Source: a virus
Length of the DNA stretch: 27,312 bases
Virus record (IMG/VR): IMGVR_UViG_3300038311_000027
Location: 1 to 27,312 of that record
Direction: 5' to 3' (one strand)
Notes under the pieces: model-generated
What the model saw: only the letters and a program-made list of their open reading frames with translations
Told to the model about the DNA's origin: nothing
Database searches by the model: none
In this document: piece by piece, positions 1,163-13,119 of the stretch
Layout of the letters: every line of letters starts with the position of its first letter
How positions within the stretch are numbered: the stretch's first letter is position 1
Program-made: the position numbers and the translations under genes

Positions 1163-1423
1163 ATGAAATGGACATCTGAAAAACCGAAACGGGATGGAGG
1201 TAAAGCAATGGCGTTATATGATGACCCGAGCAATGAATTGAATTCAAAGAAGTTCCACACAGGAAAACTATGTATCGAAGGGTGCGGTCGTCCAGCAGGT
1301 ACAGCATGGAGCCCCCACTGGTGCTTCGAATGCAACGTAGAGAGAATCAATCGAATTAATAATCAATTTAAAAAGCTAACCAGTTCATTCACTGGACCTA
1401 TAACAAACCATGCCAGTGATTAA
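1163..1423 (+). CDS. Hypothetical protein with four-Cys cluster
   Basis: The 86-residue product carries C-x3-C (CIEGC) followed about 16 residues later by C-x2-C (CFEC), a plausible treble-clef or zinc-knuckle layout. The first start gives an N-terminus KWTSEKPKRDGG, reminiscent of the short WTxEKP openings of many small phage proteins. However, the in-frame ATG at 1208 has a perfect GGAGG seven bases upstream and would give 71 residues, still including all Cys. The sequence cannot decide between the two. The gene is third in the rightward operon; its function is unknown. Confidence 0.65.
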   Translation: MKWTSEKPKRDGGKAMALYDDPSNELNSKKFHTGKLCIEGCGRPAGTAWSPHWCFECNVERINRINNQFKKLTSSFTGPITNHASD

Positions 1424-1466
1424 GACGTTATATCATTAGTCAATAAATTGGAAGAGGAACAGAAAA

Positions 1467-3419: not shown

Positions 3420-3601
3420 TCTATCAATCCCTTCTCCCTCGCAAGGTCATCCATATTTTTCAAAAAAGTTTTAGACCATTCTTTTCGATTTGATTTTGTT
3501 GCGTATCCTATCGTTTGATTGGTCATCATTTCGGCAATTGGGATCAACGTATCACGTGCCATTATATAGGCATGGTCTATTTTTGGTTTTTTGTTGTTCA
3601 T
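3416..3601 (-). CDS. Hypothetical phage protein (61 aa)
   Basis: This is a small, basic, mostly helical protein (MNNKKPKIDHAYIMARDTLIPIAEMM...) with no recognised motif. Its start overlaps the exonuclease stop by four bases and its stop overlaps the next gene's ATG by four bases. These tight junctions support it as a real gene between the exonuclease and downstream genes. Function unknown. Confidence 0.62.
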   Translation of the reverse strand: MNNKKPKIDHAYIMARDTLIPIAEMMTNQTIGYATKSNRKEWSKTFLKNMDDLAREKGLIE

Positions 3602-4236
3602 TGTCGATTCGCTTCCTTGAATGAGTTGTATTTTGATATAATATCATACTTTTTTTCTTCTAAGAGATCAACATATTCTTTAAATTTTTCAATGTATTTG
3701 TTGTAATTGTCATCGCGTTCAACCCTCAAAATAAATGGTTCCATATCAGGATGATACGATATGAAAACCCATGATTCTAATTCATCAGCAACATAGAGGC
3801 TACCGTACACCTGAGGAACGTATTCAGTTGGTAATACTCCATCGATAATATATTTTAGATGTATTCCATCGGAGGGGCATTTAATTTCTAAGCCAAATTC
3901 CCCATCAATCAACCCGTCTGGAGAACAACCCAATAGCCCGCTATCATTTTTTTTAATGAATCCAACATTTTTAATGTCTGACCCTGTTATGAACCCATAA
4001 TAATTTTTTGCGATAGGTTCCAAATCAAGCCCGCGCTGCATATGGTGATTGGTATATGAATCCCTGTCCATTTTGCCAGTGATAGTTTCACACGCCAATC
4101 TAAACGCCTCCCCATTTAATGAGTCTGATTTTTTACCGGTAGCAGTGCAAATATTTTTGAATCTGGAGGCAGTTAGGCAACCAGACCTTATATTCCACCA
4201 TTCATCAGAATATTGCTCAAAATCATACATTATCAT
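3598..4236 (-). CDS. Lambda-Exo/YqaJ-type recombination exonuclease
   Basis: This 212-residue protein has the YqaJ nuclease layout. It begins with a Q-x-S-x-E/D-W start (FEQYSDEWWNIRSGCLTASRF), followed by MQRGLDLEPIAKNYY (RG-x-x-LEP). The catalytic block is GCSPDGLI (D) ... FGLEIKCPS (E-x-K), residues about 103-122. A Q-x-Y segment (VPQVYGSLYV) follows. Relatives degrade one strand of duplex DNA 5' to 3', leaving single strands for an annealing protein. That partner is the next gene upstream, and the two overlap by 14 bases, the typical coupled phage pair. The length is normal and all expected acidic and lysine residues are present. Confidence 0.9.
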   Translation of the reverse strand: MIMYDFEQYSDEWWNIRSGCLTASRFKNICTATGKKSDSLNGEAFRLACETITGKMDRDSYTNHHMQRGLDLEPIAKNYYGFITGSDIKNVGFIKKNDSGLLGCSPDGLIDGEFGLEIKCPSDGIHLKYIIDGVLPTEYVPQVYGSLYVADELESWVFISYHPDMEPFILRVERDDNYNKYIEKFKEYVDLLEEKKYDIISKYNSFKEANRQ

Positions 4237-4861
4237 TTTGGGCCACCATCATTCGTTTCTTTTTTTCAAGCATAACAACAGCCCTTTCATAATCATTTGA
4301 TTTCAAATCTTTGATTGATATAATTTGAAAACACTTCAAAAATTTAGATAGATCGGCCTTAGAATCCTCAAGCAATACAACAATATTTGCTTCCTGCTCT
4401 TCCGTTATTGTCTTTATGTCATCGTCAGGCTTTGTATATTTTGAGCCGTCCCAATAACCCATATACACATCTGCTCCGACTCCTAACATTTTCATGGCAT
4501 TTGTGAGGGCGTCAGTTACCGCCATTTTATAAGCCTCATCAGATATGTGAGGCCCTGAGCTCTCCTGGACTTTCAATTTTGATCCACCGACCCCAGGGAT
4601 CGCATCGCTCCATTCCCCATCTATTTTCACAGACAAATCAACATCGACAAAAATAACGATTTCATTATCAACATCTATTTGTCTCATATTCTTTATTTGG
4701 TATTTCCAATCTATGCCGCACAATCCATAGACTTCGGTCATACGCTTTATACGCCACATTGGTTTTATGTCGGTCATATTTTTAAGTCTACCGCCCGTTA
4801 TCTTTTTCAATACCGATGCTGGCGGCGTTGCTACTTTGTCCCAAAAATCCATTGGCCCCAT
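4223..4861 (-). CDS. Rad52-fold-type single-strand annealing protein (Sak/DdrA-like)
   Basis: The N-terminal half matches the phage Rad52-like annealing family in style. It starts DFWDKVATPPASVLKKI, then MWRIKRMTEVYGLCGIDWKYQI, then a strand of acidic/hydrophobic residues. The signature helix ISDEAYKMAVTDALTNAMKMLGVGADVYMGYWDGSKY falls around residues 105-143. The C-terminal third is charged and helical, as in proteins that contact SSB or the exonuclease. Its partner exonuclease follows with a 14-base overlap, and SSB is in the same operon. An AAAGGA ribosome site precedes the ATG. A cassette-like array sits immediately upstream (4910-5760). The exact subfamily (Sak, DdrA or another) cannot be fixed by eye. 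Confidence 0.75.
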   Translation of the reverse strand: MGPMDFWDKVATPPASVLKKITGGRLKNMTDIKPMWRIKRMTEVYGLCGIDWKYQIKNMRQIDVDNEIVIFVDVDLSVKIDGEWSDAIPGVGGSKLKVQESSGPHISDEAYKMAVTDALTNAMKMLGVGADVYMGYWDGSKYTKPDDDIKTITEEQEANIVVLLEDSKADLSKFLKCFQIISIKDLKSNDYERAVVMLEKKKRMMVAQNDNV

Positions 4862-4878: not shown

Positions 4879-4916
4879 GGTTATCTAATCATTTCGATCC
4901 ACATTTATAGTCTAAC
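4879..4916 (-). repeat. 38-bp direct repeat, copy 2
   Basis: This matches 5384-5421 with two mismatches over 38 bases. On the minus strand it reads GTTAGAC, then ATAA, TGTGGATCG, AAATGATTAG and ATAACC. Similarity continues for AACG after a one-base offset. The repeat starts exactly at the GTTAGAC that ends the attC-like site at 4910-4986, and runs into the leader of the annealing-protein gene. Confidence 0.9.
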
Positions 4917-4986
4917 GCCCCTGTTGAGCCGCGCCCTCGGAAGCCGAAGGCTGAGAAGGTGTCGGCTCCAACGGATTGTTATGTGG
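4910..4986 (-). other. attC-like integron recombination site (site 2)
   Basis: Read on the minus strand, the site starts CCACATAAC (4986-4978) and ends GTTAGAC (4916-4910, a full match to the GTTRRRY core). The inner arms GTTGGAGCCG (4972-4963) and CGGCTCAAC (4931-4923) pair with a single unpaired G, the extrahelical base typical of attC. A small central hairpin (AGCC-TTC-GGCT) caps the structure. It lies directly after the stop codon of the 4987-5313 gene and in the orientation expected for a cassette. I worked out the fold by hand; no covariance search was run. Confidence 0.8.
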
Positions 4987-5337
4987 TTATCCTGCGTGAG
5001 TGTAAACGCAGATCGCCTCTTTTACTTCTTTCTGATACTGCTCATCCACGGCTTTCTTGCATTCTTCGTCGGTCATACCTTCTTCAATGAAAATAAGATT
5101 TTCCATCTCATCTCTGATGTTGTCTTCATCAGTTTCGATCCGCTCGCCACCATCAAACCACCATGGATTGATCTCCACTCCGGTTATTCTGTGGGCCGTC
5201 CATCCTGAATCACAGAGTTCGTCGGAATCGACACAGAAATGAATATCCATTTCTGGATGTTGCGCTTTCAATTCGAGTATTTCTTTCAGATATTCTTCTT
5301 GTGTTTTATTCATAATCCTCTCCTTTGATCCACATAA
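4916..5337 (-). mobile_element. Integron-type gene cassette B (complete)
   Basis: The cassette is bounded by the predicted G/TT cut points of two attC-like sites. It begins TTATGTGG, then a short leader with AAAGGAGAGG, then the 4987-5313 gene 24 bases in, and ends with its own attC-like site. With the preceding G, the cassette start (GTTATGTGG) is the exact complement of the site's first arm (CCACATAAC). This is the relation expected when a free circular cassette carries one complete site. No promoter of its own is obvious, so expression would come from the phage operon. No integrase gene is in the window. Confidence 0.75.
4987..5313 (-). CDS. Cassette-borne hypothetical protein (108 aa)
   Basis: This is an acidic 108-residue protein. 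A helical N-terminus (MNKTQEEYLKEILELKAQHPEMD) leads into IHFCVDSDELCDSGWTAHRITGVEINPWWFDGG and an acidic, helical second half ending VYTHAG. The 'lk..nPd..i.f.vd.de..d.g.' pattern recalls small phage hypothetical proteins, but I know no function. The strong AGGAGAGG ribosome site lies seven bases before the ATG. The stop codon TAA directly precedes the attC-like arm CCACATAAC, the compact layout of integron cassettes. Base composition near the 3' side is visibly richer in G+C than the flanking phage genes. Confidence 0.85.
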   Translation of the reverse strand: MNKTQEEYLKEILELKAQHPEMDIHFCVDSDELCDSGWTAHRITGVEINPWWFDGGERIETDEDNIRDEMENLIFIEEGMTDEECKKAVDEQYQKEVKEAICVYTHAG

Positions 5338-5391
5338 CGGTTAAGCTCACTGGCTGCGATGTTTGCAGTCCAGTGAAGCGTTGGGTTATCT
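5330..5391 (-). other. attC-like integron recombination site (site 1)
   Basis: On the minus strand it runs from AGATAAC (5391-5385) to GTTATGTGG (5338-5330). The inner arms GCTTCACTGGACTGC (5379-5365) and GCAGCCAGTGAGC (5357-5345) pair along their length with two unpaired bases, again the attC hallmark, around a 7-nt loop. The outer boxes fit the RYYYAAC/GTTRRRY consensus less well than site 2, at 5 and 6 of 7. It separates the gene at 5394-5674 from the cassette at 4916-5337. Confidence 0.72.
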
Positions 5392-5421
5392 AATCATTTC
5401 GATCCACACTTATCGTCTAAC
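5384..5421 (-). repeat. 38-bp direct repeat, copy 1
   Basis: This is the partner of 4879-4916, with two mismatches in 38 bases. It covers the last codons of the frame-interrupted gene (LLDDKCGSK and stop) and the first arm of attC-like site 1. Upstream of GTTAGAC the two copies share nothing, so the left boundary coincides with an integron core sequence. Confidence 0.9.
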
Positions 5422-5674
5422 AATTCATTTAATTGATTTAACTCTTTAAGAAGTGCCTCCTTACGAAGCTCGTACCATTCGCTGTCTATTTTAACAGCCA
5501 TCCCTTTTGTAGCTGCCATAGCATCGCAATTGTCTATCCAGCCCCGAGCCTCATAACAAATAATATCGCCGTTGCTGTCAATTTGAATATGATCACCGGC
5601 TCTAAAAGTTCCATCACTGCTTTTTTTGTGACGATATATCTTGCATTAGTAATTAATTTTAACGTATTTGGCAT
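5394..5674 (-). pseudogene. Cassette gene interrupted at an A7 run (frameshifted or -1 recoded)
   Basis: From ATG 5674 the frame reads MPNTLKLITNARYIVTKK and then runs into 28 unrelated residues and TAG. Moving to the -1 frame at the A7 run (minus 5627-5621) gives a coherent continuation: SSDGTFRAGDHIQIDSNGDI, a middle segment, ATKGMAVKIDSEWYELRKEALLKEL, and a stop at 5396-5394. That is 93 residues in all. The seven A bases are phased ACA AAA AAA, exactly the X-XXY-YYZ heptamer that permits -1 slippage. The product could be made by programmed frameshifting, or the gene may be broken by a one-base loss, or the base may be a sequencing error. Its TGTGGATCG end belongs to the 38-bp repeat. Function unknown. 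Confidence 0.7.
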
Positions 5675-5703
5675 TTTGTTTCACTCCAATTGCTATGTTG
5701 GGT

Positions 5704-5760
5704 CAATAACATTTTGTTAAGTTTACTGCGCTACGCTTGCAACTTAACAAGTTGTTAGAC
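5704..5760 (-). other. attC-like integron recombination site (site 3)
   Basis: On the minus strand it starts GTCTAAC (5760-5754, full RYYYAAC match) and ends at GTTATTG (5710-5704, only the GTT core fits well). The inner arms TTGTTAAGTT (plus 5714-5723) and AACTTAACAA (plus 5741-5750) are perfect 10-bp complements around a 17-nt spacer. The usual unpaired base is not evident, so this is the weakest of the three sites. The stop codon of the upstream gene lies inside it, which is common for cassettes. Confidence 0.55.
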
Positions 5761-6010
5761 TTGATTCAAGTTCTGCTATTCTTCCTCTCAACGACACGAC
5801 TTCAGATTCAAGACTGTCTTTTTCTTCTTCGAGTTCCTTGCGCCCTTTATCGCAAACTTCACAAAAAGTTGTAAACTCATTCGTTGATCTGCTTTTGTAT
5901 TCTGTATTCCAACAAATCCCGTTTCCACAATTAGCGCACCACATTTGAAACTCGATCCGTATTTCCACGCGATTGCCCTGAATGTCAATATCTTCTCTTG
6001 CTGTTGGCAT
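5744..6010 (-). CDS. Small zinc-ribbon/coiled-coil protein, possibly cassette-borne
   Basis: The 88-residue product has C-x2-C (CANC) and, 26 residues after that pair, C-x2-C (CEVC), a plausible zinc ribbon. A charged heptad-like coiled coil follows (KELEEEKDSLESEVVSLRGRIAELESS). I start at ATG 6010, which has GGAGG six bases upstream; the frame stays open to 6037 but lacks a comparable ribosome site there. The stop lies in attC-like site 3. If it was once a cassette gene, its other boundary is not evident upstream. Function unknown. Confidence 0.72.
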   Translation of the reverse strand: MPTAREDIDIQGNRVEIRIEFQMWCANCGNGICWNTEYKSRSTNEFTTFCEVCDKGRKELEEEKDSLESEVVSLRGRIAELESSLTTC

Positions 6011-6033
6011 ACAATCCTCCTTTTCGCGCGAAG

Positions 6034-6252
6034 TCAATAAGACCTATCTGATATTTCTTTTTTCAAACAAAAGTTCTTTTTCTTTAATGCATCATTTTCT
6101 TCAAGCAGTTTTTTGTTTGATTCTTTCAGCATCGAATTAGATACCTCTAATTTTTTGATATAATTTTTGGCATAGTCAAGGGCTCGATCCATTTTACATG
6201 TATCGCAAGTCTCGCCATTAATTAGTAAATCATGATTGCATCCACATTCCAT
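6034..6252 (-). CDS. Small Cys-rich coiled-coil protein
   Basis: This is a 72-residue protein. The N-terminus has C-x-C and C-x2-C (CGC...CDTC), followed by a long helical, Leu-rich segment (YIKKLEVSNSMLKESNKKLLEENDALKKKN) that is very likely a coiled coil. Its plan, a metal-binding head plus coiled coil, is like that of the next gene downstream although the order and sequence differ. An AAAGGACAAAAATT ribosome site precedes the ATG. Function unknown. Confidence 0.7.
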   Translation of the reverse strand: MECGCNHDLLINGETCDTCKMDRALDYAKNYIKKLEVSNSMLKESNKKLLEENDALKKKNFCLKKEISDRSY

Positions 6253-6318: not shown

Positions 6319-6699
6319 TTAGAATGGTATGTCATCATCTGGAAAATTGCCAGTTATGGGCGGCGGAGTGTATTGTTCTCCTTCATTTTTTGGCGATAAG
6401 AAATCGATGCCATTTACTCGGATGTTTGTATAGACTATTTTTAATCCATCCTTTTCCGATGTCCTGTATTCAAGCTCCCCATTGATGTATAATTTTGACC
6501 CTTTTTTACAATATTTTGATATAAGCTCAGCCTTCTGACCAAACGCTACGCATCTATGCCAAGCTGTATCGTATCCACCCTCCTTTTTTTTCCTGGATGT
6601 TGCCAACGAAAAATTACAAATTGCCGTCCCGTCTTTTGAATAGATAACTTCTGGGTCACGACCAATGTTCCCAACCAAAATAACTAAATTCACAGACAT
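6319..6699 (-). CDS. ssb: Single-stranded DNA-binding protein
   Basis: The 126-residue protein has the OB-fold SSB opening (VNLVILVGNIGRDPEVIYSKDGTAICNFSLATS), the W-H-R-C-V-A-F-G core and an IYINGELEYR-like strand. It ends with the acidic DDDIPF tip used to recruit partner proteins. Length is slightly short because the linker is brief. It coats single strands during replication and recombination, and lies in the same operon as the helicase loader, annealing protein and exonuclease. A short hairpin with a T7 run lies just upstream (6737-6757) and may modulate it. Confidence 0.95.
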   Translation of the reverse strand: MSVNLVILVGNIGRDPEVIYSKDGTAICNFSLATSRKKKEGGYDTAWHRCVAFGQKAELISKYCKKGSKLYINGELEYRTSEKDGLKIVYTNIRVNGIDFLSPKNEGEQYTPPPITGNFPDDDIPF

Positions 6700-7017: not shown

Positions 7018-7797
7018 TTAAGCATCCTTTCGAATTTGGTTCCGTCGCATTGATTCCCAATCGAAAACCAAAACAGCGCCATGATTTTCGAACAACCGGT
7101 CAATGGTTCTTGAACCAAGGTTCTCTTCGAGATCCTTCATGCTGAGATTTGAAACAATCAATGTTGGCCTAACAGCTTCATATCTTTTATCGATAATTTG
7201 ATAAGTCAGAGCTATCTCAGTTTCCGTAAAAGTTTTTAGGCCTACTTCATCCAGTATGACCAAATCAAATTCGGATATAGCTTTTATAACCCCCCCTTCA
7301 GTTTCCGTTGCCCCTCGGCCATATGTTGCTTTTATCCTGGCCATCAAATCATAAAGCCTGTAATAGCCTACAGAGTAGCCTTTTAAATGCAGGTCAACCC
7401 CAACAGCGGTAGCTAAATGGGTTTTGCCTGTACCAGGGTTGCCTATGAATACCATGCAAGAGCCCAATTCCTTAACTTTATCGAAATTGACAACGAATTT
7501 AGAAACGCGCTCAACAACTGCACGCTGTTGGGGGTTGTTAATTTTATAGTTTGAGATCCTCATATTGGACCGTCGTTTAGAGAGCCACTCAATCTTTCCT
7601 TCTTCGGCCTTCAATGATGTCTCTACATCTTGTACACATTTTGGGCATTTAGAATAAAACGCCTTCCCTAAAATATCATGTTTAGTTGACTGGTACTCAC
7701 CATGTTTAGAACAATTCATTTTGGTTTGTTCCTGAGCCGGATTTGTCATAGTAGGAAGAATCTCCGAAAGTTTTTTTAGATCCTGTTGTTCTGCCAT
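7018..7797 (-). CDS. DnaC-like AAA+ helicase loader
   Basis: This 259-residue ATPase has a four-residue zinc-binding-like head (C-x-K-H ... C-P-K-C, residues 29-54). Walker A is GNPGTGKT (119-126), Walker B is LVILDE (about 179-184), and a sensor-like IVSNLS and R-x-x-D-R-L arginine region come near the C-terminus (RTIDRLFENHG). It belongs to the DnaC/DnaI/IstB class and would load the host replicative helicase at the phage origin. The ATG at 7797 has AGGGGTGA upstream; a GTG nine bases earlier is in frame. It overlaps the initiator gene by 92 bases in another frame, as initiator-loader pairs do in lambdoid phages. Confidence 0.92.
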   Translation of the reverse strand: MAEQQDLKKLSEILPTMTNPAQEQTKMNCSKHGEYQSTKHDILGKAFYSKCPKCVQDVETSLKAEEGKIEWLSKRRSNMRISNYKINNPQQRAVVERVSKFVVNFDKVKELGSCMVFIGNPGTGKTHLATAVGVDLHLKGYSVGYYRLYDLMARIKATYGRGATETEGGVIKAISEFDLVILDEVGLKTFTETEIALTYQIIDKRYEAVRPTLIVSNLSMKDLEENLGSRTIDRLFENHGAVLVFDWESMRRNQIRKDA

Positions 7798-8449
7798 TAG
7801 TGTCACCCCTTTTTTTATTTTCCCATGTTCGTATGGCTGCTCTCCAGTCCTTCATGGGTGTCTTACCAATTTTCCAACCCTTTGACTCATAAAAATCATA
7901 AAATGTTTTTGCGCAAATACCGTTTCCCCTCTCTATGCAATATGCGTCTATTTCCGCTACACTTGGTTTAACGAATTTTTTTGATGTAGGCTCACATGTA
8001 TTATTGCCTATATATATATTATATAATTCTTTCCCTTCTTTCCCTTCTTTCCTTGTTTGTTTGTGGTTGATTGCTGGTTGGTTGCTGGTTGGTTGCTGGT
8101 TGGTTGCTGGTTGATGTGGATGGTCGTCTTGCTGATAACGCTCCCAATTTATTATTGTTATTATTGAAAATTTGTTGGTTGATTTTTTATGTATCAACCG
8201 TTCGGTTAATAAAAAACGAGCAATCGTTCGTATTTTCTGTTCCGATATACCCAACTCAATAGAAGCTGCCTTCCTTCCAAACACAAATTGGCCAGGTTCA
8301 AGAGGCACTAAAGCCGTCCCAACTAAAACATTATGTTTTTTCCATGACGCCTTCATTAAACACCAAGACCAAAAACGCCAAATGTCACGATCTTGGAATA
8401 TGGTCGATTCAATTGACTTGCGCCACAATTTAACATAACCTCTTTCCAT
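7706..8449 (-). CDS. Phage replication initiator (winged-helix, O/DnaD-like)
   Basis: The 247-residue protein starts GYVKLWRKSIESTIFQDRDIWRFWSWCLMKASW, the usual opening of phage winged-helix replication proteins. The winged-helix domain is ELGISEQKIRTIARFLLTERLIHKK (about 67-92). A low-complexity linker rich in N, Q, P and T (about 112-137) follows. The C-terminal FYDFYESKGWKIGKTPMKDWRAAIRTWE block is common in such initiators. Iteron-like repeats encode the linker (8000-8113). It would bind the origin and hand over to the DnaC-like product of the next gene. A GGTGAAAT ribosome site precedes the ATG. Confidence 0.85.
   Translation of the reverse strand: MERGYVKLWRKSIESTIFQDRDIWRFWSWCLMKASWKKHNVLVGTALVPLEPGQFVFGRKAASIELGISEQKIRTIARFLLTERLIHKKSTNKFSIITIINWERYQQDDHPHQPATNQQPTSNQPAINHKQTRKEGKEGKELYNIYIGNNTCEPTSKKFVKPSVAEIDAYCIERGNGICAKTFYDFYESKGWKIGKTPMKDWRAAIRTWENKKRGDTNGRTTGSKKTFGDSSYYDKSGSGTNQNELF
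8000..8113. other. Candidate phage replication origin (iterons + AT-rich tract)
   Basis: Inside the initiator gene there are four head-to-tail 11-bp units GGTTGRTTGCT (8065-8075, 8076-8086, 8087-8097, 8098-8108) plus GGTTG. Next to them are three 9-bp TTCTTTCCY units (8027-8053) and then an AT-rich run with TATATATATTATATAATT (about 8011-8028). Iterons in the initiator gene beside an AT-rich unwinding zone is the lambda ori-in-O arrangement. An 11-bp period is not a codon multiple, so it is not simply a peptide repeat. Function is inferred. Confidence 0.6.
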
Positions 8450-9468: not shown

Positions 9469-9704
9469 GTTGCATCCTCCACTTCAGTTTCAACCACCAA
9501 ATCATAGATATTCAATGGCTTGATCGATTTTCGGTTATTTTCGATTCTTGATAATGCAGACAAAATACCAAGGCCTCTTTGTTTGGAGATAGCAACCCTA
9601 CCCTCCCTATATTGGAATATAGACCCAATTGATGATCCTGACTCTTTTGCGAGCTCACCCAACGTGATTCCTTTCTGTTCCATATAAAACTTTAATTTTG
9701 TCAT
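9465..9704 (-). CDS. XRE/Cro-like transcriptional regulator
   Basis: This 79-residue DNA-binding protein has a helix-turn-helix at LGELAKESGSSIGSIFQYREG (residues about 15-35), preceded by LKFYMEQKGIT as in Cro/CI family proteins. It is followed by a short alpha-helical end and an acidic C-terminus. It lacks a long oligomerisation or protease-sensitive domain, so it is more Cro-like than CI-like. It is the first gene of the leftward early operon, and its divergent neighbour starts 218 bases away. It probably controls the two facing promoters in that gap. Confidence 0.82.
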   Translation of the reverse strand: MTKLKFYMEQKGITLGELAKESGSSIGSIFQYREGRVAISKQRGLGILSALSRIENNRKSIKPLNIYDLVVETEVEDAT

Positions 9705-9922: not shown

Positions 9923-10267
9923 ATGGACGAAATGAACGAAATTGAAATAAATGGGTGTGTGTATGTAAAAAAAAATAGGGATGACATGCCGTATGTCATA
10001 GTGAGAACGCACTCGGCAGGTGTTTTTGCTTGTTACTTAAAAGATAGAAATGGGAAAGAGGGTGTATTGGTAGACGCACGAAGGTTGTGGCGTTGGTCAG
10101 GGGCTGCGTCATTGTCACAACTCGCTGTGGATGGACCATCAAACCCACAAAAATGCAAATTCCCATGTGTTGTTGGTGAAATAATTGTGACTGAAATTAT
10201 AGAAATATTAACTTGTACTGAAAAATCTAAAAAAGCTATCAGTGAGGTTCCAGTATGGAAAGTATAA
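9923..10267 (+). CDS. DUF6948-like phage protein
   Basis: This is a 114-residue protein. The block GVLVDARRLWRWSGAASLSQLAVDGPSNPQKCKFPCVVGEIIVTEIIEILTCTEKSKKAI (residues 47-106) matches a recurring phage protein with the W-S-G-A-A-S-L-S-Q-L-A and C-K-F-P-C signatures, which I know as DUF6948-like. The role is unknown. GGAGG precedes the ATG. Its 3' end overlaps the start of the glycine-rich gene by 13 bases, and such pairs of DUF6948-like plus Gly-rich genes recur in phages, from memory. Confidence 0.72.
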   Translation: MDEMNEIEINGCVYVKKNRDDMPYVIVRTHSAGVFACYLKDRNGKEGVLVDARRLWRWSGAASLSQLAVDGPSNPQKCKFPCVVGEIIVTEIIEILTCTEKSKKAISEVPVWKV

Positions 10268-10539
10268 TTGGCTCTGGATATGGTGATGGCTATGGGGATG
10301 GCTATGGTGATGGCTATGGGGATGGCTCTGGCTCTGGCTCTAGCTCTGGATATGGATATGGATCTGGGGATGGCTCTGGTGATGGATATGGGTATGGAGC
10401 TGGTGATGGCTATGGTGATGGATATGGAGATGGATATGGCTCCGGATATGGAGATGGGGATGGAGCTGGTGATGGAGATGGCTATGGGGATGGCTATGGT
10501 GATGGCTCTGGGGATGGCTCTGGCTCTGGAGATGGATGA
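10255..10539 (+). CDS. Low-complexity Gly/Tyr/Asp/Ser repeat protein
   Basis: After MESIIGSG the protein is built almost entirely of GYGDG, GSGSG and GDGSG units to its end, 94 residues in all, with no hydrophobic core. It is likely disordered or condensate-prone. The acidic Asp could bind cations. The underlying DNA is a tandem array of 6-bp GGNTAT/GGNGAT/GGCTCT units, which keeps several other frames open. It overlaps genes on both sides (13 bases upstream, 8 bases downstream), so it is probably translated by coupling. Function unknown. Confidence 0.72.
   Translation: MESIIGSGYGDGYGDGYGDGYGDGSGSGSSSGYGYGSGDGSGDGYGYGAGDGYGDGYGDGYGSGYGDGDGAGDGDGYGDGYGDGSGDGSGSGDG
10270..10531 (+). repeat. 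6-bp-period tandem repeat (GGNTAT/GGNGAT)
   Basis: About 260 bases consist of hexamers of the type GGNTAY, GGNGAT, GGCTCT and GGAGCT. Third-position variation shows selection for the peptide rather than pure replication slippage. Length is likely unstable between relatives. Confidence 0.85.
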
Positions 10540-12789: not shown

Positions 12790-13119
12790 ATGGAAGATTT
12801 TTTGGGGTTTATGAAAATGGATCGTTATAGCCGAGAGGTAATAGTCACAGAAAAGATCGATGGAACTAACGCTCAGATTCTTATTACCGAAGATGGAGGT
12901 TTTTTTACCGGGTCGCGTAACCGTTGGATTACGCCTGAAAACGATAATTACGGATTTTCCAGATGGGCTCACCGGAACAAGGACGATCTTATGGAGCTTG
13001 GCGTAGGTCGACACTTTGGAGAATGGTGGGGCTATGGTATTCAGCGTGGTTACGGATTGCAGAAAGGCGAAAAACGCTTTTCTCTTTTTAATTATGCAAG
13101 CAAGATATATTGTCAATAA
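12790..13119 (+). pseudogene. Truncated RNA ligase (T4 Rnl2-like nucleotidyltransferase)
   Basis: The frame contains ligase motif I E-K-I-D-G-T-N (Lys22 nucleophile), G-S-R-N-R (41-45) and motif III-like F-G-E-W-W-G (76-81, Glu78). It then has YGIQRGYGLQKGEKRFSLFN. It then ends with YASKIYCQ and a stop, so motifs IV and V with their Glu and Lys residues are missing. At about 109 residues it is roughly half of the usual small ligases. Neither other forward frame restores the rest. Composition switches sharply to AT-rich at about 13085, so a rearrangement junction is likely. AAAGGAGA precedes the ATG, so a truncated product may still be made but would not be expected to complete ligation. Confidence 0.75.

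Follow-up and report, generated by a model that had tools for sequence, protein, structure and literature searches.

How does an integron-type gene cassette come to lie in the early operon of a phage? Clusters of attC sites without an integron integrase (CALINs) occur in phage genomes (Qi et al. 2023; PMC9892861) and are known from some twenty phages, the entry route of their cassettes being so far a guess. The question arises here for a 27.3-kb virus record of IMG/VR, from an uncultured phage, which we analysed as a whole (hereafter the window) and in which the first-pass annotation had read three attC sites within the leftward recombination operon.

That operon starts at a helix-turn-helix-like gene near 9704 and runs through replication genes (7706-8449), DnaC (7018-7806) and SSB (6319-6699), followed by small genes, to the genes of a Rad52-like single-strand annealing protein (4223..4861, minus strand) and a YqaJ exonuclease (3598-4236). 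The annealing protein matches phrog_7838 (E 1.2e-35) and reaches 40% to the Rad52/22 annealing protein of phage phiRg519T2; the cassette lies immediately upstream of its gene. No DNA similarity of the window to phages was detected, nothing in it reached Rfam gathering scores, and a defence-gene search of the small genes with PADLOC gave no match. Elsewhere in the window, a long tandem-repeat ORF (GYGDGYGDG...) at 10255-10539 can be read in several frames of either strand, and a short RNA-ligase-like ORF (12790-13119, plus strand; phrog_548, E 2.7e-27, about one third of the family profile covered) is 77% identical to part of locus L264 and possibly truncated.

Two predicted attC sites in the recombination operon

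Integron integrases of four kinds were used as queries and yielded 80 bacterial loci with intI. A scanner for the pattern R''-spacer-L''...L'-spacer-R' found many sites in bacterial intI loci and few in shuffled sequences, and 38 aligned bacterial sites upstream of intI served to build an attC covariance model, R1, which is our own model, trained on sites preselected by our own scanner, and distinct from the published IntegronFinder model. With R1, the aadA1 and aadA2 sites scored 71.9 and 69.4 bits, two tandem VIM-24 cassettes of a class 1 integron 36.1 and 31.6 bits, and the attC sites of phage TJE1, which recombine with IntI1 (PMC9892861), 31.2 and 21.3 bits; 80 viral IntI loci yielded 177 sites, of 21 to 70 bits.

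The first-pass annotation had proposed an attC covariance scan of the region. Run with R1 on both strands of the window, with filters off, the scan returned two significant matches, both in gene orientation on the minus strand. The first, attC1 (4910..4984; 37.2 bits, E 1.9e-7; crossover G|T at 4916/4915), consists of R'' ACATAAC, spacer AATCCG, L'' TTGGAGCCG(A), L' CGGCTCAA, a spacer and R' GTTAGAC. The second, attC2 (5332..5391; 35.7 bits, E 4.4e-7; crossover at 5338/5337), consists of R'' AGATAAC, spacer CCAAC, L'' GC(T)TCACTGG(A), L' CCAGTGAGC, spacer TTAACC and R' GTTATGT (5338-5332). In the rest of the window the next best match had 17.1 bits and all others at most 9.5. The scanner, which is independent of R1 scoring, ranked the same two sites first and second across the whole window, and two matches of this strength within 1 kb of each other did not occur on any strand of 200 dinucleotide shuffles. 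The claim that the sites follow the direction of the genes thus held, site 1 scoring 37.2 bits on the minus strand versus 7.5 on the plus strand.

The boxes of both sites keep AAC and GTT intact; measured against the consensus RYYYAAC/GTTRRRY, those of site 1 agree at 6/7 (ACATAAC) and 7/7 (GTTAGAC) positions, and those of site 2 at 5/7 (AGATAAC) and 6/7 (GTTATGT). A GTTAGAC core had earlier been assigned to site 2; it belongs to the R' box of site 1. Sequence and folds placed two extrahelical bases in each site, G and A in TTGGAGCCGAC on the L'' arm of site 1, as previously noted, and T and A in GCTTCACTGGA of site 2, replacing the single unpaired G read there before. In both sites these bases lie on the 3' arm of the plus (bottom) strand, on which the attC2 hairpin has a z of -4.75, and the spacers measure 5-6 nt. 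The arms of attC1 are identical to aadA/Pseudomonas-type attC sites at 40/52 positions. That attC1 and attC2 are duplicates of one hairpin could be ruled out, as their identity to each other (24/52) is at the level of random attC pairs (mean 23.5/52). Judged by these properties, sites 1 and 2 are genuine attC sites, similar in strength to those of ordinary integrons or to experimentally proven phage attC sites.

A complete integron comprises an intI gene and an attI site adjoining the array. The TIGR02249 profile found no integron integrase in the 27-kb record, an absence whose scope is the record, possibly a fragment. Two sites about 350 bp apart, in the same orientation and without integrase, make the locus a CALIN and not a complete integron.

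The remaining site of the first-pass annotation, site 3 (5704..5760, minus strand), did not hold up as an attC. It is a hairpin that overlaps the end of gene 5744-6037 and folds well (DNA fold z -3.5 and -4.4), and it might be read as a third, decayed attC, in which case the neighbouring gene X would itself be a cassette (5338-5707) and the array would contain at least two. The box spacing (7-6-7 ... 7-6-7) and an R'' of GTCTAAC fit this reading, X starts about 30 bases past the would-be core, and ATAAC is common to the R'' of attC2, AGATAAC, and the complement of the presumed R', GTTATTG. However, GTTATTG is off consensus at three of the four variable positions, no base is unpaired, and the R1 match extends over a fragment only (9.5 bits, E 1.5), which makes a decayed attC rather improbable.

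A weaker candidate, which had gone unmentioned before, lies in a gene island of its own on the plus strand, at the end of ORF 1163-1423 (site 4; 1374..1433; R1 17.1 bits, E 0.019). Its fold is not exceptional. It has the core TTCACTGGAC / CCAGTGA in common with attC2, and the start of a possible cassette (1140-1427), GTTAGCA, complements its R'' AGCTAAC at 6/7 positions; joining the flanks of 1140-1427 keeps ORF 811-1143 open for five codons more. The identity between sites 2 and 4 (29/52) is under the 95% level of 32, so that their belonging to one attC family is only suggestive.

The cassette and its cargo

Gene cassette 1 (4916..5337, minus strand; 422 bp) extends from TTATGTGG, after the G of attC2, to the G of attC1 and contains, in minus-strand order, a ribosome-binding site, a 108-aa ORF and the R'' of attC1. 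It opens with GTTATGTGG, a perfect reverse complement (9/9) of CCACATAAC, which comprises R'' and its flank at the attC1 end. In a comparison set of 58 cassettes from bacterial intI loci, R'' matched the start of its own cassette at 4/4 variable positions in 46 cases and that of the next cassette in 19. The R'' of attC1 agrees with the next cassette's start at one of the four variable positions, and so follows the own-not-next pattern of known arrays. The simple conclusion from these predicted boundaries is that cassette 1 is a genuine integron-type cassette between two different attC sites, and on this evidence the earlier claim of such a cassette inside the leftward recombination operon, upstream of the annealing gene, stands.

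Could both sites be ordinary phage hairpins, terminators or operators, that merely resemble attC? The window does contain other hairpins, such as site 3, and small palindromes are frequent in AT-rich early operons. Against this stand E-values of about 1e-7 for both sites, their correct orientation, the unpaired bases on the correct arm and the 9/9 match at the cassette start. Moreover, when R1 was run over 744 kb from 83 loci that encode related annealing proteins, attC clusters appeared in two of them only (L198 and L237) and weak matches in a single other (L211). We regard a mere resemblance as the least probable of the readings considered here.

The putative cassette ORF (4987..5313, minus strand; 108 aa) is preceded by the ribosome-binding site GGAGAGG, and its stop codon adjoins R''. 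The only homologue detected was gene16 of Chlorobiaceae phage CV-1-33 (34% identity over 95%, E 1e-13); there was also a weak match to phrog_23660. Pfam and PADLOC gave no match to the protein, whose predicted structure is of low confidence (pLDDT 56), and no relatives of the ORF were found in plasmids, in genome_contigs or in 160 IntI loci. No attC was found in the 26.7 kb of CV-1-33 that were scanned. The idea of a foreign base composition for the ORF was dropped, its GC content (42%; regional mean 38%) being unremarkable. Because its one clear homologue, CV-1-33 gene16, lies near the ERF annealing gene of that phage, the cargo is, by homology, a phage-type early gene. Capture from a chromosomal integron, as the first-pass annotation had inferred, found no support in these searches, and such a source is unproven.

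A direct repeat that begins at the crossover base

Upstream of the cassette lies a small phage gene, gene X (5394..5674, minus strand). It occupies two frames (5534-5674 and 5394-5519), and the protein-like sequence runs on across an A7 run at 5621-5627; X is likely one gene with a frame break, a programmed shift or a sequencing error at this run. The 3' end of gene X is present twice, as a 38-bp direct repeat on the minus strand that the first-pass annotation had not mentioned. Copy 2 (5384..5421) is the end of the gene itself (...LLDDKCGSK*), whose reading frame includes GTTAGAC as a naturally occurring GTTRRRY box. Copy 1 (4879..4916) starts at the G|TTAGAC of attC1 and reaches the leader that precedes the annealing gene. 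The copies are 95% identical, with two differing positions, and are spaced by 505.

At this joint the cassette abuts phage DNA at the G|TTAGAC of the gene X 3' end. The repeat starts exactly at the G of attC1, and the copies disagree at each of the four bases preceding this G, so that the duplicated phage sequence has its border on the predicted crossover base of the integrase. It looks as if recombination at a secondary (attG-like) site within a phage gene had left the repeat behind. We infer that recombination between attC1 and the GTTAGAC box in an allele of X would be the most economical reading of the joint.

An assembly chimera at the 38-bp repeat could produce a similar arrangement, given that the locus is known from a single metagenomic record and that a near-identical repeat could mislead an assembler. 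Yet the copies differ at two positions, attC1 and the cassette are enclosed by phage genes that belong to a single syntenic genome, and a border on the crossover base would not be expected of a chimera, which we therefore hold to be very improbable.

The R'' of attC2 (AGATAAC) overlaps copy 2 of the repeat, an overlap that is left unexplained by a simple insertion of cassette 1 in one step. With R'' inside the repeat, more than one event, or a joint of two phage alleles, is needed. The overlap is compatible with an alternative in which the attC sites are real, and the segment was acquired from a carrier phage by homologous or illegitimate recombination, no integrase having acted in this lineage and the joint being one between two alleles of X. 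Such events at GTTRRRY motifs have been suggested (PMC9892861); the two differences between the repeat copies are what two alleles would show, and the cassette ORF has its sole homologue next to the annealing gene in the early operon of another phage. The repeat, however, begins exactly at the crossover, with no homology upstream that could have guided homologous recombination. Transfer from phage to phage is unlikely on balance, although it is the alternative with the most in its favour.

How the cassette may have entered

The reading that we prefer, with a probability of roughly 78%, is that the phage carries an integron-type cassette at 4910-5391 that was joined to its DNA by an outside integrase recombining attC1 with the GTTAGAC box in X. 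The record itself being without an integrase, we suppose that the enzyme was supplied in trans by the host or by a co-infecting element. The bottom strand of attC1 would fold during phage replication, and the folded site would recombine with GTTAGAC in one allele of gene X, this box serving as an attG-like secondary site. The resulting joint would connect the array to the leader of the annealing-protein gene, the reading end of X staying upstream. Under this mechanism, an empty allele would consist of the end of gene X followed directly by ...GATTAGATAACCAACGAAAGGACAAAACAATG. Once in place, the cassette ORF may be expressed by read-through from the promoter of the leftward early operon, and any encounter with a host whose integrase is active could, in principle, allow the cassette to be cut out or swapped.

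We looked for phages in which the locus differs. The nearest relative, G003 (locus L172), has structural, replication and recombination genes in shared order (identities: head closure protein 71%, DnaC 59%, exonuclease 57%, annealing protein 56%). Its DnaC and annealing genes are only about 135 bp apart, the inserted genes being missing, and no attC was found in the whole G003 record (best match 13.8 bits). Because so little lies between these two genes in G003, everything that the window has in this interval, from the SSB gene through the small genes and X to the cassette, is variable content, and the locus is a variable one, as had been anticipated; an exact empty site is not thereby shown. 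A search for sister phages through DnaC returned only G003, already known, and scans of viral_contigs with the annealing protein, the cassette ORF and DnaC singly, and with the repeat as an exact pattern, gave nothing. As no empty copy of the exact locus was found by these routes, the insertion is deduced and not observed.

Other attC clusters near phage annealing genes

The two other phage loci with attC clusters resemble the present one in that the clusters are without integrase and lie in phage recombination regions, near homologous annealing genes; they differ in their attC sequences and in their cargo. In L198 (IMGVR_UViG_3300029981_000047), four attC sites score 20-33 bits and are accompanied by genes for an M78-like peptidase and two DNA methylases, N6_N4 and C5; the methyltransferases are cassette-borne, and the attC sites are interspersed with core phage genes. 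In L237 (IMGVR_UViG_3300032362_000034) the sites (38.3, 28.9 and 18.7 bits) point away from the annealing gene. No integron integrase was found in either record. The presence of attC clusters in three distinct phage recombination regions suggests that integrons and phages meet repeatedly at such places.

Note that integrase-encoding contigs also exist in IMG/VR: 270 of those in viral_contigs (loci L092-L171 among them) encode relatives of integron integrases, many with adjoining attC arrays, and some of these may be mis-sorted or integron-bearing host DNA. Virus Rctr41k (KX853513; locus L006), from a methane-oxidising enrichment, has an integron integrase annotated as xerD (45% to IntI1) with attC-like matches downstream.

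With an early gene of another phage as the cargo's only homologue, one may ask whether some cassettes are passed around among phages and not among bacteria. One might extend this, tentatively and with doubt outweighing belief, to the idea that phage early operons could act as attG-type landing or exchange places for cassettes circulating mainly among phages, an outside integrase acting at a coding GTTAGAC box and leaving the 3' end of the gene on both sides.

Comparison with known systems

Carriage of cassettes by viruses had been called uncommon, and it is indeed rare, but it is already documented: the phenomenon has been reported for phages (PMC9892861), with Tetrasphaera phage TJE1 and Polaribacter phage P12002L as examples of phage CALINs. 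The present locus shares with these two a pair of attC sites in the same orientation, a small cassette, a phage genome and the absence of an integrase. With R1, the TJE1 sites score below the present ones (31.2 and 21.3 versus 37.2 and 35.7 bits). The cassette described here differs from the TJE1 and P12002L CALINs in lying directly upstream of an annealing-protein gene and in carrying no methyltransferase, and its joint with a phage gene differs in leaving a readable footprint, the repeat that starts at G|TTAGAC.

For that joint, the closest counterpart is the insertion of integron cassettes into bacterial genomes at secondary attG sites (Loot et al. 2024, as cited in PMC11023631 and PMC12901181). 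An integrase that joins a cassette to non-integron DNA at a GTT-type site would give exactly such a border; the present case, a predicted one, differs in that the target is a phage gene, whose 3' end is found on both sides. What is new here is therefore an example with an unusually readable insertion footprint: a duplicated gene end that borders on the crossover base and turns the entry of cassettes into phages, by recombination of an attC with a secondary site, into a testable route.
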